Source: Chloroflexota bacterium (GTDB lineage Bacteria; Chloroflexota; Dehalococcoidia; Tepidiformales; Tepidiformaceae). From it: 64,000 bases of DNA. A model generated the notes under the pieces. The model worked only from the letters and a program-made list of their open reading frames with translations. It was not told the DNA's origin and made no database searches. Made by a program: the position numbers and the translations under genes. The stretch lies in NCBI GenBank assembly GCA_026702615.1, contig JAPPBY010000031.1:62001-126000 (forward strand), written 5' to 3'. Shown here piece by piece: positions 15,084 through 33,197 of this stretch; position 1 is the stretch's first letter, and every line of letters starts with the position of its first letter.

Positions 15084-16298
15084 GTGACCGCACCCAACGC
15101 CACCCCCACTCCTGATCGCGGACTCCTCTGGGACACCGTCGGCTACTTCCTCCGCCTCGGCTTTGTCGCCTTCGGCGGCCCCGCCGCTCATGTCGCGATC
15201 ATGCGCCGCGACCTCGTCGAACGCCGCAAGTGGCTCACCGACCAGGACCTCCTCGATCATCTCGCCGTCGCCAGCCTCATCCCCGGCCCCAACTCCACCG
15301 AGCTGGTCATGCACCTCGGCGCCCGCCGCGCGGGCTGGGCTGGACTCTGGCTGGGGGGCGCTGCCTTTATCCTGCCCGCCTTCGCGATCGTCCTCGTCTT
15401 CGCCTGGGTCTACGTCGAGTACGGCGAGACGGATATTGGCCTCGACCTGCTGCGCGGCGTGCAGCCGGTCATCCTCGCGATCGTCGTGCAGGCGATCTGG
15501 GGCCTGCGCACGACAGCCGTCCGCGCCTGGGATACGGCCGTCGTCGCTGGCGCCGCCGTCGTCCTCGCCGTCCTCGGGCTGAACGAGGCGATCGTCATCG
15601 TCGGCGCCGGTGCTGTCCTCCTCGCGTGGCGGCGGCTCGCCCCCGAGCCCCTCCGCAAGCCCCTCGCCTCCCCGCTTCCCGACCCCCGCCTCGCCTGGCG
15701 TGCGGCACGCCGCTGGCTCCGCGTGACCGGCCGTCGCGCCGGCGGCCTCGTGCTCCTCGCGAGCCCTGCCGGATTCGCCCTGCCGGAGCTCTTCTGGGTG
15801 TTCCTCAAGATCGGCGGCACCCTCTACGGCAGCGGCTACGTGCTCGTCGCCTTCCTCGAGGCCGACTTCGTCACGAACCGGGGCTGGCTCACCGAGCAGA
15901 CCCTCGTGGACGCCGTCGCCGTCGGCCAGTTCACCCCCGGACCCGTCTTCACCACCGCCACTTTCGTCGGCTACGTCTTCGATGGTTTCCTCGGCGCGAT
16001 TGTCGCGACGGTTGCCATCTTCCTTCCCTCGTTCCTCTTCGTTGCCATCACTCACCCCCTCGTCCCCCGCCTCCGCGAGGCGCCCTGGGCCTCCGGCTTC
16101 CTTGACGGTGTAGGTGCTGCCGCCGTCGCCGTCATGGGCGTGGTGGTCATCTCCCTTGGCCGCATTGTCATCGACGATGCGTTCGCCGCTGTTGTTCTGG
16201 CCGTCGCTGCTCTTGTCCTCGTCCGCTTCTCCCCGAGCACCGTCTGGCTCGTACTTGCTGGCGGGGCCGCCGGCCTCGTCGCAGGCGTTGTTCCCTAG
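15084..16298 (+). CDS. chrA: Chromate transporter family protein ChrA (two-domain)
   Basis: A 404-residue membrane protein of the CHR family, which exports chromate or related oxyanions. It is the long, two-domain form. The first half has FVAFGGPAAHVAIMR and IPGPNSTELVMHLG; the second repeats the pattern with KIGGTLYGSGYVLVAFLE and FTPGPVFTTATFVGY. About ten to twelve helices are predictable. The start is GTG with a TATCGT -10-like hexamer at 15061-15066. Chromate transport is the family assignment; sulfate or another anion cannot be excluded. Confidence 0.88.
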   Translation: MTAPNATPTPDRGLLWDTVGYFLRLGFVAFGGPAAHVAIMRRDLVERRKWLTDQDLLDHLAVASLIPGPNSTELVMHLGARRAGWAGLWLGGAAFILPAFAIVLVFAWVYVEYGETDIGLDLLRGVQPVILAIVVQAIWGLRTTAVRAWDTAVVAGAAVVLAVLGLNEAIVIVGAGAVLLAWRRLAPEPLRKPLASPLPDPRLAWRAARRWLRVTGRRAGGLVLLASPAGFALPELFWVFLKIGGTLYGSGYVLVAFLEADFVTNRGWLTEQTLVDAVAVGQFTPGPVFTTATFVGYVFDGFLGAIVATVAIFLPSFLFVAITHPLVPRLREAPWASGFLDGVGAAAVAVMGVVVISLGRIVIDDAFAAVVLAVAALVLVRFSPSTVWLVLAGGAAGLVAGVVP

Positions 16299-17490: not shown

Positions 17491-18288
17491 GTGACGAACA
17501 CCCAGACCATCAATCCGCGCGTTCTCGACGCCACCGTGGAGGGCGCCGTCAATCTCCGCGATCTGGGTGGCTACCGCACAACCGATGGCAGCCTCGTCCG
17601 CGCCGGACGCATCTACCGCTCGGGGATGATGCACACCATCACCCCCGCCGGTCTGGCCGCCCTCCGAGACACCCTCGACATTCGCACCGTCGTCGATCTC
17701 CGCAACGCCGAGGAGCTCGAGGCCGACGGCGTCTCGCCCTTCGCGGACTACGGCATCACCTGGCGCAACGCCCCCATCGGTGGCGAGACCGTCACGACCC
17801 CCGAAGAGCGCCGGGAGCGCGTGAAAGCGTACGTGGCGAACGAAGTCGACTGGTGCGAGTCCTACGTGCGCATGACGGATCGGAACGCCCCTGCCTTCCG
17901 GGATCTCTTCGAGCTGATGGCGGACAGCGCCAGCGCCCCCCTGGTCTTCCACTGCTCCGGGGGGCGCGACCGCACCGGCGTCGGCGCCGCCCTCCTCCTC
18001 TCCTCTCTCGGCGTCGACGATGAAACGATCGCCCTCGACTACGCCCTCACGGGCGACCTGCTCCAGCCCCACGTCGACTGTTTTAGGCGCCAGATGGAGG
18101 GGGTCGGCATGACGCGCGAGAGCTGGGCGAGGCTCCTCGAAACATCGGCCGACGCCATGCGCCGCTTCCTCGTCTACCTGCGCGAGGAACACAACGGCGC
18201 AGAGGCGTATCTGCGGGACGTCGGCGTGTCCGCGACCGCCTTCACGGCGGCCCGGCAACACCTCCTGCAACTTCCGAACGTGACATAG
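17491..18288 (+). CDS. Protein-tyrosine/dual-specificity phosphatase (Y_phosphatase3 type)
   Basis: A 265-residue CX5R phosphatase. The signature HCSGGRDRTG places the nucleophile at Cys155 and the phosphate-binding Arg at 161. The N-terminal NLRDLGGYRTTDG and RAGRIYRSG blocks are those of the Mycobacterium PtpB-like / Y_phosphatase3 group, which also hydrolyse phosphoinositides. The general-acid region lies near residues 83-95. The protein is cytosolic. The GTG start has AAGGAG 7-8 nt upstream. Confidence 0.9.
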   Translation: MTNTQTINPRVLDATVEGAVNLRDLGGYRTTDGSLVRAGRIYRSGMMHTITPAGLAALRDTLDIRTVVDLRNAEELEADGVSPFADYGITWRNAPIGGETVTTPEERRERVKAYVANEVDWCESYVRMTDRNAPAFRDLFELMADSASAPLVFHCSGGRDRTGVGAALLLSSLGVDDETIALDYALTGDLLQPHVDCFRRQMEGVGMTRESWARLLETSADAMRRFLVYLREEHNGAEAYLRDVGVSATAFTAARQHLLQLPNVT

Positions 18289-18345: not shown

Positions 18346-20787
18346 ATGTATTCCGTTAAAACGCTCCCATATCTCGCTCTCGTGACAGTAGCGGCGCTCC
18401 TGGCCCTGCTCGTGGTCGCCTGCGGCGGTGATGAAGAGGAACCGACCCCCGAGCCTACTTCCGCGCCCGCCACCGAGGCCGCTGCGACCGAAGCCCCGCC
18501 CCCCGACGAGGCAGTGGAGCTGCACATCGGCGTCGTCCTCCCCGAGACCGGGGCCCTCGGATTCCTCAATCCGCCGATGATCGAGTCCGTCCGCCTGGCC
18601 GTCGCCGACATCCTCGAAGCCGGTGGGGCTATCAAGGTGACCTACGCCGATACCGGCACGAATCCCGATGTTGCGACCGAGTCGGTCAACCGCCTCCTGG
18701 GTGAGGGCGCCCACGTCATCGTGGGCGCGGCAGCCTCCGGTATCTCCCAGTCGTTCATCCAGCGCCTCTACGACGAGAGGATCCCGCAGTGCTCCCCGTC
18801 CAATACCTCCCCCTCCTTCAGTACCCAGGAGAACGCCGGCTACTACTTCCGCACCGTCCCGCCGGATGAGGCAGTTGCCCCCATCATTGCCGACGAGGTT
18901 GTCGCCGACGGCGGCACTCGCGTCGCCATCCTCGCCCGCGCCGATGACTACGGGAACGCACTCGCGAATCTCATGGTGCACGCCCTCAACGAGCTTGGCG
19001 CCGAGTCCACGATCATCTCCTTCGACCCCAACGCCTCGTCGTTCGAGTCCGAGGTAGCGGCTACCCGGGCGTACGGCCCTGACGCCATCGTTCACATCTC
19101 CTTCGAGGAGGGAACAAGCATCATCCGCGGCCTCCTTGAGGCGGGATTCGGCCCAGAGATCCAGTACGCGGCCGACGGGCTCTTCTTCCCAACCCTGTGG
19201 GAGTTGGTTGACCCCAACAACCCGAACGTCCTCGATGGCATGAAGCTGATCGGCGCCAGCGGGTCCAGGGAGTTCAATGAACGCCTTGGCACGATCACCG
19301 GCGGCAACCTCATCTATGGGGGTCAGTCGTACGACTGCGTCGTATTGCTCGTTCTGGCCTCAGAAGCAGCGGGCAGCACGGATGGCGATGCCATTATCCA
19401 GGCCCTTGCCACCCTTACCGACGGCGGCGCCGAGTGCCGCAGCTACGCCGACTGTTCCGCGCTCCTTGCCGAGGGCGAGAACATTGACTACGTCGGTGTC
19501 AGCGGTCCCCTCAACCTCGACGAGGTCGGCGACCCCACGGTCGGCAACTACGCCATTGCCCAGTTCCAGGATGGCGTCCTCGTCGCCGTCGGCGACAAGG
19601 AAAGCCACCTCGGCGATCTCGTCGCCGCGGCCGCGCCGGCGCCAACCGAGGCCCCGCCTGCAAGTCCCAGCCTCCACATCGGCGTCATCCTCCCGGAGAC
19701 CGGGGCGCTCGGTGAATACGGGGTTCCCATGATCGCCTCCGTACGCCTCGCAATCGAGGACATCATTGCCGGAGGCGGCAACGTCGAGGTGACCTACGCC
19801 GATAGTGGCACTGATCCCGACGTTGCCGGTGAGGCCGTCAACCGGCTGCTTGGAGAGGGCGCTGACGTCATCGTCGGGGCGGCCGCATCCGGCATCTCCC
19901 AGTCCTTCATCCAGAAGCTCTACGACGAGCGCATTCCCCAGTGCTCGCCATCGAACACCTCGCCGTCGTTCACCGGTCAGGCGAACGCTGGCTACTACTT
20001 CCGTACCGCTCCCTCCGACGCCATCGTCGCTCCCGTCATCGCCGACACGATCGTGAGCGAAGGCGGGACGCGCGTCGCCATCCTCGCTCGCGCCGACGAC
20101 TATGGTGTGGCCCTCCGTGACCTTGTTGACAACGCCCTCCAGAGCGTCGGCGCTGAAACCAGCATCACGACGTACGACCCCAACAGCACCGTCTTCAGCG
20201 CCGAGGTCGAGGTTGTCAAGAGCTACGGCCCCGATGCCATCCTGCTCATCAGCTTCATCCCCGACGGCTCCAGCCTGCTCCGCGGGCTGCTTGAGGCCGG
20301 CTACTCGCCGGGCATGATGTACGGCTCCGATGGCATGCACACCTCCACGCTGTGGGAGAGCGTTGACGCCTCGAATCCCGAGGTGCTCGACGGACTCACG
20401 CTCTTCGTTGCGTCGGGTCCCGCCATCCCCGCCTACGAGGAGTTCAACGCGCGCCTCGCGGAGGTCTCGGAAGGGAACTTCGTGTTCGGCGCCCAGTCGT
20501 ACGACTGCACCGTCATCCTGGCCCTCGCATCCCGAGCGGCGAGCAGCACCGACGGCGACGACATCATTGCCGCTGTCAGTTCCGTCACCCGCGACGGCAC
20601 GGAGTGCACGACCTACGGCGAGTGCGCGGCCCTTATCGATAGCGGGCAGGACGTGGCCTACGTCGGCAAGGTCGGCAGCCTCAAGCTCGATGACGGCGGC
20701 GACCCCACGGTCGCGACCTACAAGGTGAGCCGTTTCGAGGGTAGCGATCTCGTCGAGCAAATCACCGTCTTCGACCTCAGCCGCTAG
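18346..20787 (+). CDS. Lipoprotein with two fused LivJ-type (Peripla_BP_6) binding domains
   Basis: An 813-residue lipoprotein with two homologous type I periplasmic-binding domains in tandem. A signal helix ends in a lipobox at Cys26, and an acidic Pro/Thr/Glu linker runs to residue ~57. Domain 1 starts at Leu59 (LHIGVVLPETGALG) and domain 2 at Leu443 (LHIGVILPETGALG), joined by a second Pro/Ala linker. Both share VIVGAAASGISQSFIQ, LYDERIPQCSPSNTSPSF, VAILARADDYG and GQSYDC. Each domain is full length, so the molecule can bind two ligands. It faces the livHMGF genes and probably feeds that importer. Confidence 0.92.
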   Translation: MYSVKTLPYLALVTVAALLALLVVACGGDEEEPTPEPTSAPATEAAATEAPPPDEAVELHIGVVLPETGALGFLNPPMIESVRLAVADILEAGGAIKVTYADTGTNPDVATESVNRLLGEGAHVIVGAAASGISQSFIQRLYDERIPQCSPSNTSPSFSTQENAGYYFRTVPPDEAVAPIIADEVVADGGTRVAILARADDYGNALANLMVHALNELGAESTIISFDPNASSFESEVAATRAYGPDAIVHISFEEGTSIIRGLLEAGFGPEIQYAADGLFFPTLWELVDPNNPNVLDGMKLIGASGSREFNERLGTITGGNLIYGGQSYDCVVLLVLASEAAGSTDGDAIIQALATLTDGGAECRSYADCSALLAEGENIDYVGVSGPLNLDEVGDPTVGNYAIAQFQDGVLVAVGDKESHLGDLVAAAAPAPTEAPPASPSLHIGVILPETGALGEYGVPMIASVRLAIEDIIAGGGNVEVTYADSGTDPDVAGEAVNRLLGEGADVIVGAAASGISQSFIQKLYDERIPQCSPSNTSPSFTGQANAGYYFRTAPSDAIVAPVIADTIVSEGGTRVAILARADDYGVALRDLVDNALQSVGAETSITTYDPNSTVFSAEVEVVKSYGPDAILLISFIPDGSSLLRGLLEAGYSPGMMYGSDGMHTSTLWESVDASNPEVLDGLTLFVASGPAIPAYEEFNARLAEVSEGNFVFGAQSYDCTVILALASRAASSTDGDDIIAAVSSVTRDGTECTTYGECAALIDSGQDVAYVGKVGSLKLDDGGDPTVATYKVSRFEGSDLVEQITVFDLSR
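18520..20787 (+). repeat. Internal tandem duplication of a ~1.1-kb coding unit
   Basis: The binding-domain units begin at 18520 and 19672, a period of 1152 bp (384 codons). Several blocks remain nearly identical at protein level while synonymous positions differ, so the duplication is not very recent. Confidence 0.85.
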
Positions 20788-20813
20788 GCTCAGGCCGGAA
20801 CGGCAAGCACCTC

Positions 20814-20841
20814 GGAGGGGGCGCCGCAAGGTGCCCCTTCC
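20814..20841. terminator. Hairpin between convergent genes (likely bidirectional terminator)
   Basis: Arms 20814-20825 and 20830-20841 pair over 12 positions (two G-U wobbles on the plus strand) around a GCAA tetraloop. It sits in the 63-bp gap between the double binding protein and livF, which converge. No long T-run follows on either side. Confidence 0.6.
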
Positions 20842-20850
20842 GTGCGCGTC

Positions 20851-21591
20851 TCAGTCGCGTGCTCTGGCGCTGAGCGAACCCAAATACAGCTCGACGACGC
20901 GCTCGTCGTTCAGGAGCTCTTCACCGGGACCGGTGTAGGCGTTGCGCCCCTGGTCGAGCACGTACCCGCGGTGCGCAACCTGCAGGCAGCGGCGGGCGTT
21001 CTGCTCCACCATCAGCACCGAAACCCCCGCCCGGTTCACCTCCAGCACCTGCTCGAACACCTGCTCCTGGTACCTGGGCGACAGGCCCGCCGAGGGCTCG
21101 TCAAGGAGCAGCACTGAAGGGTTCATCATCAGGGCGCGGCCCATCGCCAGCATCTGCCGCTCGCCCCCGGAGAGCGCCCCGGCCCGCTGCCCCGCCCGCT
21201 CAGCCAGCAACGGGAACAGCGCCGCCACCGCCTCGAACCGCTCCTCCCATGCCCGCGGCTCAAGGAACAGGCCCATCTCGAGGTTTTCCCGGACGCTCAG
21301 CCGGGGAAACACGTTCTCCGTCTGCGGCACGTACCCGATGCCTTCGGTCACGAGCGAGTGCGGCTTCAGACCCAGGATCGAACGGCCCCGCAGCAGCACA
21401 TCCCCCTCCCACACATCCACAAGCCCGAACGCCGCTTTCAGCAGCGTCGACTTTCCCGCCCCGTTCGGCCCGACGATGCCTGAGATCTCGCCCTCGAACA
21501 GGCTCAGGCTGCAGTTGTTCAGAATGGGCACGCCCGGCAGGTACCCCGCCACCAGCGATCGCGCTTCCAGCAGTGGCTTCGCCTCAGGCAT
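20851..21591 (-). CDS. livF: Branched-chain amino-acid-type ABC transporter ATPase LivF
   Basis: A 246-residue ATP-binding subunit. Walker A is GPNGAGKST, the Q-loop is in YVPQTENVFPRLSVRENL, the signature is LSGGERQMLAMGRAL and Walker B is LLLDEPSAGL. The H-switch region is VLMVEQNARR, which has Asn-Ala where many ABC ATPases have His, as is usual in LivF. I start it at ATG 21591, where GGAGG lies directly upstream and homology begins. It overlaps livG by 8 bp. Last gene of the liv operon. Confidence 0.92.
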   Translation of the reverse strand: MPEAKPLLEARSLVAGYLPGVPILNNCSLSLFEGEISGIVGPNGAGKSTLLKAAFGLVDVWEGDVLLRGRSILGLKPHSLVTEGIGYVPQTENVFPRLSVRENLEMGLFLEPRAWEERFEAVAALFPLLAERAGQRAGALSGGERQMLAMGRALMMNPSVLLLDEPSAGLSPRYQEQVFEQVLEVNRAGVSVLMVEQNARRCLQVAHRGYVLDQGRNAYTGPGEELLNDERVVELYLGSLSARARD

Positions 21592-22453
21592 CCTCCGCCT
21601 CCTCCCAGTCCGCCGCGTCCCGCGGCCGCCCCAGGTAGGCATCGATCACCTCTTCGTTCGCCACGACCTCCTGTGGTGGCCCCTCGGTCAGGATTCGCCC
21701 CGCGGCCATAACCACCACCCAGTCGCTGATGTCCATCACCACGTCCATGTTGTGCTCGACGAACACGATCGTGACACCCTCGGCGTTCAGCTCGCGGATG
21801 TGCTCCAGGAGCGATTCCGTCAGCGCCGGGTTCACGCCCGCCGTCGGCTCGTCGAGCATGACCAGCGTGGGGTCCGCCATCAGCGCCCGCGCCATCTCCA
21901 GCAGTTTCCGCTGCCCGCCCGAGAGTGTCCCCGCCTGATCGCCCGCCATGTGCGCGAGCCCGAAGCGCTCCAGCAGCGCCTGCGCCCGCTCCCTCAGGCG
22001 CGCCTCCTCCGGCTGCCAGAGCCAGCGGAGGAGCGCCCGCTCAAGCCGCTCCCCGCGCTGCGTCTGCGCTGCCACCGCCATGTTCTCCAGCACCGTCAGA
22101 CGCGAGAGCGACTTGGTCAGCTGGAACGTGCGCACCATCCCCAGCCGCGCGATGCGGTGCGGTGGTAATCCACCGAGCAGCCGCCCGTCCAGCCGCCAAG
22201 AACCCCGATCCGGCTGGTCGAATCCCGTCAGGAGGTTGAAGAGCGTCGTCTTCCCCGCCCCGTTCGGCCCGATGATCGCCGTGATCGTCCCCCGCTCGAT
22301 CTCCAGGTGGTCGATGTCGACCGCGCGGATGCCCCCGAACGTCTTCAGCATCCCGAACGTGATCAGGATCGGGTCGTCCTTCAGCCTCCCCGGAGGGGCC
22401 GCTTCGAGCGCCGCCTGCGTCAGCTCTGGCCGGATGGTCGTCGCGTCGCTCAT
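21584..22453 (-). CDS. livG: Branched-chain amino-acid-type ABC transporter ATPase LivG
   Basis: A 289-residue ATP-binding subunit with Walker A GPNGAGKTT, signature LSGGQRKLLEMARAL, Walker B MLDEPTAGVNP and the H-switch FVEHNMDVVM. The LivG-typical VRTFQLTKSLSRLTVLENM precedes the helical domain. There is a ~27-residue N-terminal extension before the fold. The ATG overlaps the livM stop (ATGA), and livF begins inside its last codons. It forms a heterodimer with LivF on the membrane's inner face. Confidence 0.93.
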   Translation of the reverse strand: MSDATTIRPELTQAALEAAPPGRLKDDPILITFGMLKTFGGIRAVDIDHLEIERGTITAIIGPNGAGKTTLFNLLTGFDQPDRGSWRLDGRLLGGLPPHRIARLGMVRTFQLTKSLSRLTVLENMAVAAQTQRGERLERALLRWLWQPEEARLRERAQALLERFGLAHMAGDQAGTLSGGQRKLLEMARALMADPTLVMLDEPTAGVNPALTESLLEHIRELNAEGVTIVFVEHNMDVVMDISDWVVVMAAGRILTEGPPQEVVANEEVIDAYLGRPRDAADWEEAEDA

Positions 22454-23445
22454 GTCCCTAAGTGCAGGCTCCTGCGTCTCCCGAAGATGCCCTGCGGCCG
22501 GAGCGCCATCAGCGCGACCAGCCCGACGCCCATCAGTACGACGCTGATCGCTCCCTCTGCGCCGTCAAGGAAGTCCGCGAGGGCGTTCGGGAGCCAGCCT
22601 TGCTCCGATAACTCGCGGATGAACGACTCAACCCCCTCCCGCAGGAACCAGAACAGCACGGCTCCCACCACCGGTCCTACCGTCGTCGCCAGCCCGCCCA
22701 GGATCAGCGCCGCCCACGCAAAGAACGTGACCTGTGGCTCGAAGTTCTCCGACCCCACTCCCGACTGCTGCAGCGCGTCGATGACCCCCGCCAGCCCCCC
22801 GATGACGCCCCCGATGACGAGCGCCTGGAGCTTGTAGGCCACCGTGTTCTTCCCGAGGCTCAGCACGGCGTCCTCGTCCTCCCGGATCGCCCGCACCACC
22901 CGCCCCCAGGGGCTGCGGATCAGCGCCAGCACCAGCGCCGAGCAGAGGACCACCAGGATCCAGGCGACGATCATCACCCACAGCTGGTTCGACGAGTAGC
23001 TGAACGTGCCCCACCCGAAGCGCCCGTCCGGAAGGAAGTTCAGGTCGAAGAAGCTGTTCGCGATCGCCTGCAGCCCGAAGGGCCCGCCCGTGATGTCCGT
23101 CGCTGGTGAGGATCGGATCAGCAGCCGCAGGATCTCAGCCGCCGCGATCGTCGTGATCGCGAAGTAGTCGCTGCGCAGCCGCAGCGTCGGGATGCCCAGC
23201 GCCAGCGCGAACGCGACGCACAGCCCCAGCCCGAACGGAATCCCCAGCCAGAGCGACCCGCCCCACGTCGCCACCACGATTGCCGTGCCGTAGGCGCCCA
23301 GCATCATGAACCCGACCTGCCCGAAGTTGAGCAGTCCCGCGTAGCCGAAGTGCAGGTTCAGTCCGATTGCCGCCAGCGCGAAGATCGCCGCCTGCGGCCC
23401 CAGCCCCGCCCGGGCGGCGTTCCCGAAGATGATGTCGAAGTCCAT
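22450..23445 (-). CDS. livM: Branched-chain amino-acid-type ABC permease LivM
   Basis: A 331-residue inner-membrane permease. LNLHFGYAGLLNFGQVGFMMLGAY is the LivM hallmark near residue 30. The coupling loop RVVRAIREDEDAVLSLGKNTVAYKL and GGLAGVIDALQ follow in the second half. About eight to ten helices are predictable. The ATG directly follows the livH stop TAG with no gap, and the stop overlaps the livG start. Confidence 0.92.
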   Translation of the reverse strand: MDFDIIFGNAARAGLGPQAAIFALAAIGLNLHFGYAGLLNFGQVGFMMLGAYGTAIVVATWGGSLWLGIPFGLGLCVAFALALGIPTLRLRSDYFAITTIAAAEILRLLIRSSPATDITGGPFGLQAIANSFFDLNFLPDGRFGWGTFSYSSNQLWVMIVAWILVVLCSALVLALIRSPWGRVVRAIREDEDAVLSLGKNTVAYKLQALVIGGVIGGLAGVIDALQQSGVGSENFEPQVTFFAWAALILGGLATTVGPVVGAVLFWFLREGVESFIRELSEQGWLPNALADFLDGAEGAISVVLMGVGLVALMALRPQGIFGRRRSLHLGT

Positions 23446-24726
23446 CTAGCCGATCCGTTCTCGCTGGCCGAGGATTCCCTGGGGCCGCACCAGCAAAGCC
23501 AGCACCAGCACACCCAGTGCGAACACCGCTTTGATCTCGGGGCTCGCCCAGACCGTGCTCACCTCTGTCACCAGCCCGATCAGGAGCCCGCCCACCATCG
23601 CCCCGTAGGCCGTCCCTAGCCCGCCCAGCACCACCGCCGCGAACATGAGCAGCAGCAGCCGGAACCCCATCAGCCAGTCCACCGCCTCCACCGACCCGAA
23701 GAACACGCCTCCAACCGCCGCCAGGGCTGCTCCCGCCACCCATACGACCAGGACAACCCGGTCGACGTCGATACCCGACGACTCCGCCAGCTCGGGATTG
23801 TCGGCCACAGCCCGGATCGCCTTCCCCGTACGCGCACGCTGCAGGAACACCGCCACCCCGATGAGGATGACCGCAGAGAGCGCCATGATCGTGAAGTCCC
23901 GCGGGGTCACCGCAAACGGCCCGAACGTCCACTCCGCCTGTAGTGCGTAGTCGATGTAGCGCTCCCGGTCTGGCCCGAAGAACAGCAGCATCACGTGCCG
24001 CGCGAGCAGCGACAGCCCGATCGTGACCACCATGAACTGGAACATCCCGAGCCGGCGCGCCCGTAGCGGGCGTAACAGCGAGAACTCGACACCTCCTCCC
24101 GCCGCCCCCGCGACTACCACCGCCAGCACCCCCGCGAGGATGAGAGGCGCGCCGAAAGTGTCCGCGTTGAAGTACCACGCGAGGATCGCGCCGAGCGTCA
24201 CCAGCTCCCCGTGCGCGAAGTTGATGAGCCCCGTCAGCCCGAAGATGAGCGACAACCCGATCGCGCACATCGCGATGATCAGCCCGAACTTGACCCCGTT
24301 CAGGACCGCCTGTGCCAGCTTCTCGCCGACGTTTGGCCCGCGGCTCACCGGCTCGCCCAGCGCGAAGATCAACGGCCGTGAGCGTCCCGCCGTGACCGTT
24401 ACCTCCAGGGTTTGCCGCTCCGGGTCACGGAGGGTCACTCCCTCGGGCAGCGTGTCCGTGTCGATCGTCGCCCGGTACGTCCCCGGACCCGGCAGCTCGA
24501 TGCGCCAGCGTCCGTCCGCCCCCGTGACCGCCTCCCCCACCGCCTCGCCGGCGGCGTCGACGACGGATATCCGTACGCCCTCGACCGGTTCGCCGCCGAA
24601 TCGCAGCGTGCCCGAGAACGCTTCGCCCTCGCCGTCCTGCGCCTGCGCCGAGCCAAAGAGGAAGAGCGAGAGGACCGCCACCGCCACCAGCGCAACCACA
24701 CTCCGCAGCGAGCGGGCGTTCGACAA
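23446..24726 (-). CDS. livH: LivH-type permease fused to an N-terminal secreted beta-sandwich domain
   Basis: A 426-residue protein. Residues 1-30 look like a cleavable signal peptide (LFLFGSAQAQD). Residues ~35-125 form a small beta-rich domain resembling the carboxypeptidase-regulatory/bacterial-Ig type (GTLRFGGEPVEGVRISVVD, TGADGRWRIELPGPGTYRA). Residues ~130-426 are a normal LivH permease (GLSLIFGLTGLINFAHGE near 165; coupling loop GKAIRAVADNPELAESSG). Ordinary LivH proteins are ~290-300 residues with no such domain. The start is TTG with GGAAGGGG upstream; the TATACT at 24780-24775 is a likely -10. First gene of the liv operon. Confidence 0.88.
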   Translation of the reverse strand: MSNARSLRSVVALVAVAVLSLFLFGSAQAQDGEGEAFSGTLRFGGEPVEGVRISVVDAAGEAVGEAVTGADGRWRIELPGPGTYRATIDTDTLPEGVTLRDPERQTLEVTVTAGRSRPLIFALGEPVSRGPNVGEKLAQAVLNGVKFGLIIAMCAIGLSLIFGLTGLINFAHGELVTLGAILAWYFNADTFGAPLILAGVLAVVVAGAAGGGVEFSLLRPLRARRLGMFQFMVVTIGLSLLARHVMLLFFGPDRERYIDYALQAEWTFGPFAVTPRDFTIMALSAVILIGVAVFLQRARTGKAIRAVADNPELAESSGIDVDRVVLVVWVAGAALAAVGGVFFGSVEAVDWLMGFRLLLLMFAAVVLGGLGTAYGAMVGGLLIGLVTEVSTVWASPEIKAVFALGVLVLALLVRPQGILGQRERIG

Positions 24727-28177: not shown

Positions 28178-30364
28178 CTAACCCTGGGCCGCGACCTCCT
28201 CCGTGGTGGCCGCCGTCTCGGCCGGCCGCTCCAGTGGCAGCTCGATGATCATCTCGGTGTATTCGCCCGGTTCCGTGTCCACGGTGATAGTCCCGCCGTG
28301 CCTGCGAACGATGTCGCTCGAGAGCGACAGCCCCAGACCCGTGCCCTGGTCCGTCGGCTTGGTCGTGAAGAAGGGGTTGAAAATCTTCTCCGCAACCTCC
28401 GGCGGCATGCCCGTGCCGTTGTCCTTGATCCGGACTTCGATGTGGTCATCGAGGCGTTTCGTGCTCAGCCAGATCGTCGGCGTGTAGGGCCCGCCCACCA
28501 CATCGGCTCCTGGCGTCGCTGCGCGCCGCTCGTTCGTCGCGTAGCACGCGTTGCTCACCATGTTGAGGAAGACGCGGCCGAGGTCCTGGGGAATGACTTC
28601 CATCTCGCCTGCATTCGGGTCGTACTCGTCCTTCAGGTCCAGTTGGAAGTCCGAATCCGTTGCGCGCGCGCTGTGGTAGGCCAACTTCGCGTGCTCATCG
28701 AGCAGCCCATTGATGTCGCTCATCTGCCACTCCCCCGAACCCCGTCCCATCCGCAGCATGTTCTCGACGATGCGGTTCGCCCGCTGTCCGTGCGACTGGA
28801 TCCGCTCAAGGTTGGCGGTCAGGTCGCCCGTGATCTCCTCGACGTACGACTGCTGCTCCTCGCTCAGCTCCACGCCATCCTCCTCCAGCACTTCCTGCAG
28901 CTCGGTCAGAAGCTCGCCCGAGACCTCGGAGAAGTTGTTCACGAAGTTCAGCGGGTTCCGGATCTCGTGGGCCACGCCGGCCGTAAGCTCGCCCAGCGCC
29001 GCCAGTTTCTCCCGCATCACGATCTGGTCCTGGGCCTTGTTCAGCTCGCCCAGCGTGCTCTCCAACTCCACGTTCTTGTCCTGAAGCTCGTTCGCCAGCT
29101 CCTCCACCAGGTTCAGCCGCTGAACCTCGAGCGCGTGCCGCCGGAACACTTCGAGTGCGGCTGCCATGTCCGCGACCTCGTCCCTGCCCTCCATCTCCAC
29201 GCTCGTCTCGATGTCCCCGCCGGCCATCCGCCGCATCCAGTCCGTGAGCAGGTTCAGGCGGCGCAGGAGGATCCTGCCCAGGTAGAGCCAGATGATGAGC
29301 ACCGCCCCGACCACGCTCACCGCGCTGATGACGAGGAGGAGCGTGCGGCCCGTGAAGATCGCCGAGGAGGAGGCCTCGGTGGCATCCGCCGCGCTCGCCT
29401 GCGCGGCCATCACCAGCCCGTCCACCTCCGCCACCAGGTCGATCGAGAGGTCGCGGTTGCTCGCCAGCAGTTGCGCCTGGCGGGCCTCGATCCGGAGCTC
29501 CTGCTCGAAGAGGCCAAACACGCTTCCTCCACCGAGGCCCAGGGCGAACAACCGATCGAAGACCGGCGTGGCGGCCGTATGGAAGTCGGTTCCCCGTTCC
29601 GTTCCCAGGTTCCGCTCGATGCGGTTCCGCGCGGCTTCGAAGCGCTCTCGCAGCGGCTCGACCAGCGAAGCGTCCGGCAACGTGAACGCGTTTGCCAGGA
29701 GCTCCGTCGCGATGTTCACGTCCCCCTGCAACTCGCTCAGCCGCCGGTAGCGGACGACTTCCTGCTCGGCGAAGTGTTGCGAGCGGGGCGCAGCCGAGTC
29801 GTCGAGGTCGATGAATCCGGTCAGCACGAAGAAGAACTGATCGTCGATCGCCGGGGCCAGGAGGTCGTCCAGCTCGAACCGCACCTGCGTCAGCTCTTCC
29901 TGCAGTCCCTCCAGGCGCGTCCGCAAGTCGAACACGCCCGCTGTTTCGCTCCGCAGCGCGTTGATATTGGAGATGAGTGTGTCCGAATACGTGCGGATCC
30001 GGCCCACGCGCGCCTGGTCCGTGTCCTTCTTGGCCTCCAGCGTGAGCAGCTGCTCTTCGAAAGACGTGTAGGCGGCGTCGATGCTCTGAACGACCTGCGC
30101 GAATTCCTCGGGCGTCGAGGCCGCGGTCAGGTTCGGCGCTGCCGCCACCAGGACGCCGGTGTCCCGCGCGACGCCGAACGACGCCGCAAGCTCGGGCACG
30201 CTTCCCTCGTTCACGCGGCTCTGAGCGGTTCCCACGCGGTCGAAAGAGAACCAGCCCACGAGACTCGCGGCCAGCGTGAGCACCACCGCTCCCCCGACCG
30301 CCAGGTAGAGCTGCGTCGAGATACGGAACCGGCTGTCCACTAGCTGCTTTAGTCGTTCAACCAC
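28178..30364 (-). CDS. TorS-like transmembrane histidine kinase
   Basis: A 728-residue sensor kinase. Helices at ~20-38 and ~340-361 enclose a ~300-residue, mostly helical extracytoplasmic sensor. A HAMP domain (~362-413), a coiled coil (~415-450), and the HisKA domain with His466 in AGVAHEIRNPLNF follow. The ATPase domain has the N-box NMVSNACYATNE, DNGTGMPPE and the G-box GTGLGLSL. The organisation matches TorS, which is switched by a periplasmic binding protein. Here such a protein is encoded immediately upstream, overlapping by 16 bp. GTG start. Last gene of a five-gene signalling operon. Confidence 0.92.
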   Translation of the reverse strand: MVERLKQLVDSRFRISTQLYLAVGGAVVLTLAASLVGWFSFDRVGTAQSRVNEGSVPELAASFGVARDTGVLVAAAPNLTAASTPEEFAQVVQSIDAAYTSFEEQLLTLEAKKDTDQARVGRIRTYSDTLISNINALRSETAGVFDLRTRLEGLQEELTQVRFELDDLLAPAIDDQFFFVLTGFIDLDDSAAPRSQHFAEQEVVRYRRLSELQGDVNIATELLANAFTLPDASLVEPLRERFEAARNRIERNLGTERGTDFHTAATPVFDRLFALGLGGGSVFGLFEQELRIEARQAQLLASNRDLSIDLVAEVDGLVMAAQASAADATEASSSAIFTGRTLLLVISAVSVVGAVLIIWLYLGRILLRRLNLLTDWMRRMAGGDIETSVEMEGRDEVADMAAALEVFRRHALEVQRLNLVEELANELQDKNVELESTLGELNKAQDQIVMREKLAALGELTAGVAHEIRNPLNFVNNFSEVSGELLTELQEVLEEDGVELSEEQQSYVEEITGDLTANLERIQSHGQRANRIVENMLRMGRGSGEWQMSDINGLLDEHAKLAYHSARATDSDFQLDLKDEYDPNAGEMEVIPQDLGRVFLNMVSNACYATNERRAATPGADVVGGPYTPTIWLSTKRLDDHIEVRIKDNGTGMPPEVAEKIFNPFFTTKPTDQGTGLGLSLSSDIVRRHGGTITVDTEPGEYTEMIIELPLERPAETAATTEEVAAQG

Positions 30365-31629
30365 TCTGTCTCTCGCAGTGCCTCGATCTCGCGCAGTGAT
30401 TCAATGGCATGGTACTGCTCGCCGGGCCCGATGACTGTCAGGAATACCTTGTCCGACCCCTGGTTGTCATCTGCCCCGTACTGCAGCGCGAACCCCTCGA
30501 TGTCGAACGCATCCGCCTCACGGAGGCTGTTCAAGAAGCACTCCCGGTCCAGATCCCGCCCGCAGCGCTCAAGCCCAGCGATGGCGAGCCGGCCGGCGAG
30601 ATAGCCCTCGAGCGACACGAACCCCGGGGTCACGTCGGGCGCGTACGCCGCCAGTGCTCGCTGGTACGCCGCCACGACCGCCAGCGAGTCGTCCTCCGGG
30701 AAGGGCACCACCTGCGTCACCAGCACACCGACGCCGTCAGACCCCAGCTCCTGCGCCAGGGCGTTGCTGCCGACGAACGAGACGTTCAGAAAGAGCGCGT
30801 CGGACCCAAGCCGCTTGGCCCACCTGATAAACGTCGCCATCGGCTCGTAGGCGCCGATCATGATCACCGCCTCGGGGTCGTTCTCCAGCAGGTCGAGCAC
30901 GGCCGCCTTCACCGCCGAGGTGTTGCGCGTGTAGCGCCCCACCGCCACTGCCTCGCTGCCCCGCCGGGCGAGCGCCTGCTGCACGCCGTCGTACCCGCTC
31001 CGCCCGTACGAGTCGTCCTGGTACAGGATCCCGATCCGCTCGATGCCGAGGTCGGTCCTCAGGCGCTCGACCATTTCCTCGGTCTCCTGGGCGTACGACG
31101 CGCGCAGGTTGATGATGTTGCTCCACTCCGGATCCCGGAGGAAGCCGGCGCCCGTGAAGGGCGCGATGTACGGAGCGCCCGCCGCGAAAGCGATCGGCGT
31201 GGCCGAGCGGGACGTGGGCGTTCCCACCGCGCCGATCAAGGCAAACACGCCCTCGCCGATGAGCTGCTGCGTGTTGGCGATAGCAGCCTCCGGCTCGTAG
31301 GCGTCGTCCAGCGACGTCAACTCGATCCGGCGCCCGTGCACCCCGCCGTTTTCGTTCGCTTCGTGGAACGCGGCCTCGATCCCGAGGCGCATGTTCGTGC
31401 CGAGCGCCGATGCCGGTCCGCTGAATGCCGCCGACTGCCCGAAGAGCACCCGGTCCTCGAACACTCCCGGCGTTCCCGTGTCGACCGCTTCGGTAGCAGT
31501 TGCTGTAGCGGTCACCGTGCCGGTGGGATCGTCCCCGCCACCCGAGCAGCCAAGCACCGTGAGAGACGCGATCAGGAGAGAACAGACGCCTGCCAGCCAG
31601 GCGACGCGTACGGACCGCAGTCGCCTCAT
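30349..31629 (-). CDS. LivJ-type ligand-binding lipoprotein, probable sensor for the adjacent kinase
   Basis: A 426-residue lipoprotein with the lipobox Cys at 28, a short Thr-rich linker, and a type I periplasmic-binding domain (LFGQSAAFSGPASALG, GEGVFALIGAVGTPTSRS, ILYQDDSYGRSGYDGVQQAL). Such proteins usually serve ABC importers of amino acids or amides. No permease or ATPase is in this operon, and the flanking genes are an RsbW-like kinase (4-bp ATGA overlap) and a TorS-like histidine kinase (16-bp overlap). I therefore infer a sensory role, comparable with TorT in the TorT/TorS pair. The ligand is unknown. Confidence 0.88.
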   Translation of the reverse strand: MRRLRSVRVAWLAGVCSLLIASLTVLGCSGGGDDPTGTVTATATATEAVDTGTPGVFEDRVLFGQSAAFSGPASALGTNMRLGIEAAFHEANENGGVHGRRIELTSLDDAYEPEAAIANTQQLIGEGVFALIGAVGTPTSRSATPIAFAAGAPYIAPFTGAGFLRDPEWSNIINLRASYAQETEEMVERLRTDLGIERIGILYQDDSYGRSGYDGVQQALARRGSEAVAVGRYTRNTSAVKAAVLDLLENDPEAVIMIGAYEPMATFIRWAKRLGSDALFLNVSFVGSNALAQELGSDGVGVLVTQVVPFPEDDSLAVVAAYQRALAAYAPDVTPGFVSLEGYLAGRLAIAGLERCGRDLDRECFLNSLREADAFDIEGFALQYGADDNQGSDKVFLTVIGPGEQYHAIESLREIEALRETEWLND

Positions 31630-32048: not shown

Positions 32049-33197
32049 TCAGTCCCGGTGGAGTGTCAGGCAGGTGATGTCGTCGTGTTGGGGGGCGTCG
32101 CCCGTGAACTCCAACACCCGGTTCAGCATGCCCATGCACGACTGCTCCGCACCCGTGGGAGGCGCCGAGGCAAACAATTCCTGGATTCCCTCGATCCCCA
32201 TGAGCTCGCCCTGCTGGTTCGTCGCCTCCGTAACGCCGTCCGTATAGAGACAGACGGTGTCCCCTGGTTCCAGCTGGAACGAATCCTGCCGGTACTCGAA
32301 GCCTCCCAGCACGCCCAGAGCAATGCCGCCTGTCAGCGGCTTCAGCTCCGAAGTTCCGTCGGCGCGCACCACCAGGGGCGGGTCGTGGCCCCCACTCGCA
32401 TACGTAAACTCGCCCGTCGCGGGGTCGTAGACCGCGTACAGCATGGTGACGAACATGCCCGTCGTCTCGTCTTCGTTCAGGAGGTTGTTCACCTCTGTCA
32501 GCACATCGCCGGGCGCTTCGGTTCCGATGGCTGAACCCTTGAGCAGCGTCCGGCTCGACATCATGAAGAGTGCCGCCGGCACTCCCTTGTCGGAAACGTC
32601 CGCAATCGCGAGCCCAACCTTGTCGTCCGCCAGCCGGACGATGTCGAAGAAGTCTCCGCCGACATCTTTCGCCGGGTGCATCGTGCCGAAAATCTTGTAA
32701 GTAGGGCCGCTGGGGAACACCGTCGGCAGGATTGACTGCTGCATCTTGCTGGCGACGTCCAGCTCGTTCTGGAGCGCCACCAGCTTGTCACGCGTGCTGA
32801 GCGCCTCTCGCCACTGCTCGATGTGCTCCAGCGTCCGGTCGATCGTGAACTGCAGGTCGTCGAAGTCCACGGGCTTCGTCACGAAGTCGAACGCGCCCCG
32901 GTTCATGGCCGTGCGAATGTTCTCCATGTCGCCGTAGGCGGAGACGATGATCGCGCGGATGTCGGGACTGACGTTCGGGATCTGTTCCAGCAGCGTCAGG
33001 CCGTCCATGCGGGGCATGTTGATGTCCGAGACGACCATGTCGATGCTGGGATCGGCCCCGAGCTCCTCAAGGGCTTCAATGCCGTTGTGCGCAAAGACAA
33101 ATTCGTAGCGCCCGCGACGGATGTGCCGGCGCATCCGCTGCAGGACCAGCGGCTCAAGATCAGGTTCGTCGTCGACTACGAGAATTTTGTACGTCAT
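32049..33197 (-). CDS. Response regulator with PP2C-type (SpoIIE/RsbU) phosphatase output
   Basis: A 382-residue two-domain protein. The receiver (1-~125) has the acidic pocket DDE (residues 9-11), the phospho-acceptor Asp58 in VVSDINMP, and Lys in VTKPVDF. A short coiled linker ends in MQQSILP, the usual entry to SpoIIE-type phosphatases. The PP2C domain (~165-380) has metal-binding KDVGGDFFD, LAIADVSDKGVPAALFM, ASGGHDPPLV and QHDDITCL. Phosphorylation by the operon's kinase would control dephosphorylation of the STAS protein encoded 48 bp upstream. Confidence 0.93.
   Translation of the reverse strand: MTYKILVVDDEPDLEPLVLQRMRRHIRRGRYEFVFAHNGIEALEELGADPSIDMVVSDINMPRMDGLTLLEQIPNVSPDIRAIIVSAYGDMENIRTAMNRGAFDFVTKPVDFDDLQFTIDRTLEHIEQWREALSTRDKLVALQNELDVASKMQQSILPTVFPSGPTYKIFGTMHPAKDVGGDFFDIVRLADDKVGLAIADVSDKGVPAALFMMSSRTLLKGSAIGTEAPGDVLTEVNNLLNEDETTGMFVTMLYAVYDPATGEFTYASGGHDPPLVVRADGTSELKPLTGGIALGVLGGFEYRQDSFQLEPGDTVCLYTDGVTEATNQQGELMGIEGIQELFASAPPTGAEQSCMGMLNRVLEFTGDAPQHDDITCLTLHRD

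Follow-up and report, generated by a model that had tools for sequence, protein, structure and literature searches.

What does an amino-acid importer gain when the protein that feeds it carries two binding domains instead of one? The question is raised by a gene in a 64,000-nucleotide stretch of DNA (the window, i.e., the whole stretch analysed) from a bacterium of the class Dehalococcoidia, which encodes a lipoprotein with two LivJ-type binding domains in tandem. A preliminary description of this gene offered three answers: a raised local concentration of ligand, the binding of two different ligands, or the docking of both domains at once on one LivHM channel. The reading favoured here, at a probability of about 0.6, is that the protein is anchored in the membrane as a double receptor for a single amino-acid importer of the LivHMGF type, whose substrate range its two pockets would most likely widen.

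The gene is a single open frame of the forward strand, from the ATG at 18346 to the TAG at 20787, and encodes 813 amino acids (Table 1). PF13458 (Peripla_BP_6 in Pfam) occurs twice in the protein (3.7e-73 for the whole protein; 247.6 bits against a curated cut-off of 31.7), the halves score 141.4 and 116.2 bits in a search of the genome to which they belong, and by profile each half is of the LivJ/LivK type. A structure prediction with AlphaFold2, based on 22 tandem relatives, contains two complete domains (mean pLDDT 84.3) separated by a disordered linker (pLDDT <50), in agreement with the architecture first proposed; the pTM of 0.54 means that the orientation of the two heads relative to each other is not fixed by the model. 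The closest solved relatives of the halves are 3td9 and 4n0q, both single-domain leucine-binding proteins. The C half of the model matches them with Z-scores of 39.2 (3td9, over 342 residues) and 38.8 (4n0q), and the N half is linked to both by phmmer and has the same predicted order of helices and strands as the C half. Both halves thus have the type I periplasmic binding protein fold, the C half by structural match and the N half by prediction and sequence. In all tandem relatives, a hydrophobic leader ending in Cys is followed by a low-complexity tether.

Table 1. Features of the tandem lipoprotein gene and its surroundings (positions in the window).
Feature	Position	Strand	Evidence
Tyrosine-phosphatase-family gene, upstream of the tandem gene	17491-18288	+	
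Signal peptide with lipobox VVA-C26 and Pro/Thr/Ala/Glu-rich tether, residues 1-58	18346..18519	+	Translation; lipobox by inspection
N-terminal binding domain, residues 59-421, LivJ/LivK fold	18520..19608	+	PF13458; phmmer to 4n0q/3td9; AlphaFold2; dN/dS 0.05
Ala/Pro linker, residues 422-442	19609..19671	+	Translation; pLDDT <50 at protein residues 424-439 (model 371-386)
C-terminal binding domain, residues 443-813, LivJ/LivK fold	19672..20784	+	PF13458 at 443-750; structural match to 3td9/4n0q; dN/dS 0.06-0.07
12-bp G+C-rich inverted repeat with GCAA loop, between two convergent units	20814..20841	.	Fold z-score -3.2 for 20780-20862
LivF-type ATPase of the probable partner importer	20851..21642	-	PF00005; conserved neighbour
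LivG-type ATPase	21584..22453	-	PF00005 and PF12399
LivM-type permease	22450..23445	-	PF02653
LivH-type permease with extra N-terminal signal sequence and Ig-like (CarboxypepD_reg) domain	23446..24726	-	PF02653 at 142-411; PF13620 at 44-112

In a global alignment of the halves (59 to about 421 with 443-813), 221 of 362 aligned residues are identical (61%), the DNA is 67% identical and third codon positions are 51% identical, values that point to an old duplication, neither a recent copy nor a collapsed repeat. The chance that two genes were joined by an error of assembly or annotation, the refutation foreseen in the preliminary description, is accordingly negligible: the fused gene is found in five genomes of the genus, one of them (G005) a single 2.4-Mb contig, and in three further lineages, and with halves so different in DNA an artefact is excluded on present evidence. 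Judged from substitution patterns, both halves are under purifying selection, with dN/dS values of 0.05-0.07 (against G004 and G006) that are as low as those of the transporter genes.

The surroundings point to an importer as the partner. Upstream, on the same strand, lie genes for a luciferase-like monooxygenase and a protein of the tyrosine phosphatase family; also upstream, a chromate transporter gene (15084-16298, +) marks an indel among close relatives: G000 and G006 have it, and no copy aligns at this place in G004, G001, G003 or G002. Downstream, a complete LivFGMH set is convergent to the binding-protein slot in every genome of the genus whose contig spans it; the arrangement with the tandem gene is kept in G000, G004, G006, G001 and G005, and Liv permease genes are also near the tandem genes of two other lineages, f21 and f49. 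Since the tandem gene is convergent to the liv operon, the two are not co-transcribed, and it is the conserved adjacency that argues for their partnership. No further binding-protein gene was found within the operon (20851-24726) or among the adjacent genes; other Peripla_BP_6 genes exist in the same genome and could feed the same LivHM channel. The strong hairpin between the convergent units is a possible bidirectional terminator, missed by a consensus terminator scan because it has no T-tract. The LivH-type permease carries a signal sequence and a CarboxypepD_reg domain before its membrane part, a feature that is conserved across the genus and recurs in G168, in L068 and in L012, a contig of Acidimicrobiales. 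This Ig-like domain could be a receptor-docking or surface domain; the membrane part of LivH is poorly predicted (mean pLDDT 51), so that no docking is read from the model.

The same region holds another use of such domains. On the reverse strand, a single-domain binding protein gene (30349-31629) overlaps that of a HAMP histidine kinase (28178-30364), next to a response-regulator/SpoIIE phosphatase gene (32049-33197), and the cluster looks like an amino-acid-sensing system. The overlap makes it probable that binding proteins are used for sensing in this genome, and tandem Venus-flytrap domains are found in sensor kinases such as BvgS. The two heads of the lipoprotein might likewise signal the presence of amino acids to a partner such as a membrane kinase rather than take part in transport; this is improbable, as the conserved neighbour of the tandem gene is a complete LivFGMH set and not a kinase.

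What each head binds is suggested by its pocket. In leucine-binding proteins and metabotropic glutamate receptors, the backbone of the amino acid is held by S79, T102, D121, Y150 and E226. Few positions enter the present comparison, which was made by sequence alignment without ligand coordinates, with a sequence of E. coli leucine-binding protein of which residues 6-233 were checked against 1usg. Nearly all tandems have, in each half, equivalents of the first four residues and an acidic residue in place of E226; in the protein in the window, neither half has lost the Ser, Thr, Asp or Tyr, and Asp (277 and 662) stands for E226. The block most conserved between the halves (about 119-158 and 503-542, with 19 of 20 residues identical, twice) had been assigned to the hinge; it carries instead the Ser and Thr equivalent to the backbone-holding pair. 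Similarly, GTRVAILARADDYG, singled out earlier as a pocket segment that differs, is the same in the N and C halves. The differences lie at side-chain positions. The equivalent of W18 is Leu or Phe in five of five N halves and Tyr in five of five C halves (and in both single-domain proteins described below), that of Y276 is Tyr in the N half and Phe in the C half, and the residues that follow D277 and D662 are LF in the N half and MH or IY in the C half.

Because these side-chain positions differ between the pockets, the most likely effect of the pair is that a single importer accepts a wider range of substrates, and the tandem probably takes two different amino acids; with the backbone residues kept and the side-chain positions divergent in all five orthologues, the binding of two different ligands has the strongest support among the three original options. 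That both heads bind the same amino acid, two tethered copies raising the rates of capture and delivery, is unlikely, given that several of these differences are fixed in all orthologues of the genus; it is plausible in f15 and for one tandem of f49 (L035), whose halves are alike at all or nearly all checked pocket positions, with occasional differences beside them. A raised local concentration of ligand therefore fits these sister lineages better than the protein in the window, and the use of the second head seems to vary among lineages, with different ligands here and the same ligand in some others.

Whether the second head is needed at all is addressed by two close relatives, G002 and G003, in which the place of the tandem gene, flanked by the phosphatase gene and LivF, is taken by a stop-to-stop frame of 420-427 residues with one domain. 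Both single-domain proteins are of the C type (69% identical to the C half of the tandem) and have almost no tether between lipobox and domain; that of G003 is C-like wherever the halves can be distinguished, with no switch that would make it an N/C chimera. As LivHM of G003 is 98-99% identical to that of the window, one C-type head is suggested to be sufficient, the second adding range or capture without being a structural necessity, and simultaneous docking of two domains on one LivHM, as once considered, is not required. The short tether of these single alleles would also fit a protein in which only the C domain serves the importer, the N domain being a spacer or decoy that raises the C head off the membrane. 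Such a role is very improbable for an N half that retains all backbone-binding residues and evolves with a dN/dS of 0.05.

Between the two forms, a jump in divergence is confined to the binding-protein gene. Between the window and G003, nearby flanks are about 90-97% identical in DNA on both sides and the binding-protein gene 62-79%; dS is 0.14-0.34 for the genes on either side and climbs to 0.81-0.91 for the binding-protein gene, with dN up too. G001 has the same excess of dS (0.2-0.5 in the flanks, 0.7-0.9 in the tandem gene), yet its allele is a tandem. These values point to replacement of the binding-protein allele by homologous recombination as a better fit than selection in place; adaptive divergence in place is disfavoured for the difference between G000 and G003 because dS jumps along with dN. 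In G001 and G006, the phosphatase-family gene (71-76% protein identity) is more divergent than the rest of the flanks, which suggests that the exchanged stretch may include it there.

Beyond the genus, fused pairs, counted by domain parsing or full-length profile match, occur in at least 24 of 393 Dehalococcoidia genomes, in four groups (the genus of the window, f21, f49 and f15). The searches covered this binding-protein subfamily in Chloroflexota and Actinomycetota: among 350 Chloroflexota genomes, a sample that overlaps with the class set, full-length tandem matches were confined to Dehalococcoidia, and none was found in 346 Actinomycetota genomes, 57 of which have single-domain relatives at that threshold. 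The survey thus bears out, for this subfamily outside the class, the earlier statement that nearly all such proteins are single-domain. A tree built from 76 domains places the two halves of a group beside each other or beside the singles of the same group, and not beside the corresponding halves of other groups. A single fusion ancestral to all tandems is rejected unless gene conversion homogenised the halves (a clade of all N halves costs 1270 log-likelihood units; p-AU 1e-41). The simplest reading of the tree is repeated duplication and fusion across the four lineages; the alternative is that gene conversion made the halves evolve in concert. Within the genus, the C halves and the two singles form one clade, which places the duplication before the divergence of the genus; the N halves are less well resolved, that of G001 grouping with single-domain paralogues. 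Adjacent unfused genes, a pair beside a related LivHMGF in G168 and further pairs in f108, look like the step before fusion. A candidate fifth fusion in f108 (G482, "928 aa") was discarded, since a stop codon separates what are two neighbouring genes. In f15, one tandem receptor (L063:7486-10632, -) has a third, C-terminal YceI-like domain (PF04264), and a C-terminal extension equally long, at about 200 residues, is seen in L044, L046 and L047. In f21 (L059, L060 and L065), one, two or three additional single binding-protein genes come after the tandem gene, and a single Liv set lies convergent to all of them; those singles that were checked have lost the acidic ligand residue.

The mechanism proposed is as follows. 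Attached by a lipid anchor and flexible tether, two complete Venus-flytrap domains would sit outside the membrane, and each would close on an L-amino acid through its backbone-binding residues; the heads would then deliver their ligands in turn to the LivHM channel of the convergent operon, with the C-type domain able to serve alone and the N-type domain as an extra or exchangeable head. Amino acids as ligands, the difference in specificity, docking on the neighbouring LivHM and delivery one at a time are inferred.

Several known systems offer comparisons. E. coli has one LivHMGF for LivJ and LivK, which are separate proteins. The tandem resembles proteins of this kind (1usg and 2lbp of E. coli; 4n0q; 3td9) in fold, backbone-binding residues and a LivHMGF-type partner, and would mimic their sharing of an importer in one chain; it differs as a two-domain lipoprotein from these soluble, periplasmic, single-domain proteins, and scores 102.3 bits on the E. 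coli LivJ/LivK orthologue model NF011933 (cut-off 477). As to the urea importer UrtA/UrtBCDE, the LivH-type permease reaches 150.8 on the UrtB model, below the curated cut-off of 250.3, and the UrtA model has no match to the tandem lipoprotein (P0001). The binding domains of GlnPQ are SBP_bac_3 (cluster F), and those of the tandem Peripla_BP_6 (cluster B). In GlnPQ of Lactococcus lactis, the tandem domains SBD1 and SBD2 differ in specificity and act largely independently (PMC8025302). Like GlnPQ (PMC8025302), the tandem has two full binding domains on a single polypeptide, with a short flexible linker between them, and it would likewise serve one ABC importer; the difference is that the domains of GlnPQ are fused to the permease, whereas the tandem is a separate lipoprotein, not fused to a transmembrane subunit, with LivH and LivM encoded at 22450-24726. 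A two-receptor feeder for one Liv importer, which would work like GlnPQ with another type of binding domain on a separate lipoprotein, is the best reading. Tandem binding domains that serve one importer are already known from GlnPQ; what is new here is the tandem Peripla_BP_6 lipoprotein version, of which no description was found in the literature searched, an absence that is weak evidence.

A wider proposal, to which we give somewhat less than an even chance, is that the receptor slot is exchanged by recombination, near-identical bacteria swapping two-headed and one-headed alleles and so tuning what they import through an unchanged channel, and that two-headed receptors evolved repeatedly in one class. 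The locus amounts to a natural experiment on the question raised by GlnPQ, i.e., the role of a second tethered binding domain in an ABC importer: one genome combines its LivHM with a two-headed receptor, another combines a near-identical LivHM with a one-headed receptor, and the existence of lineages with diverged and with identical pairs of pockets makes the roles of dosage and specificity separable.
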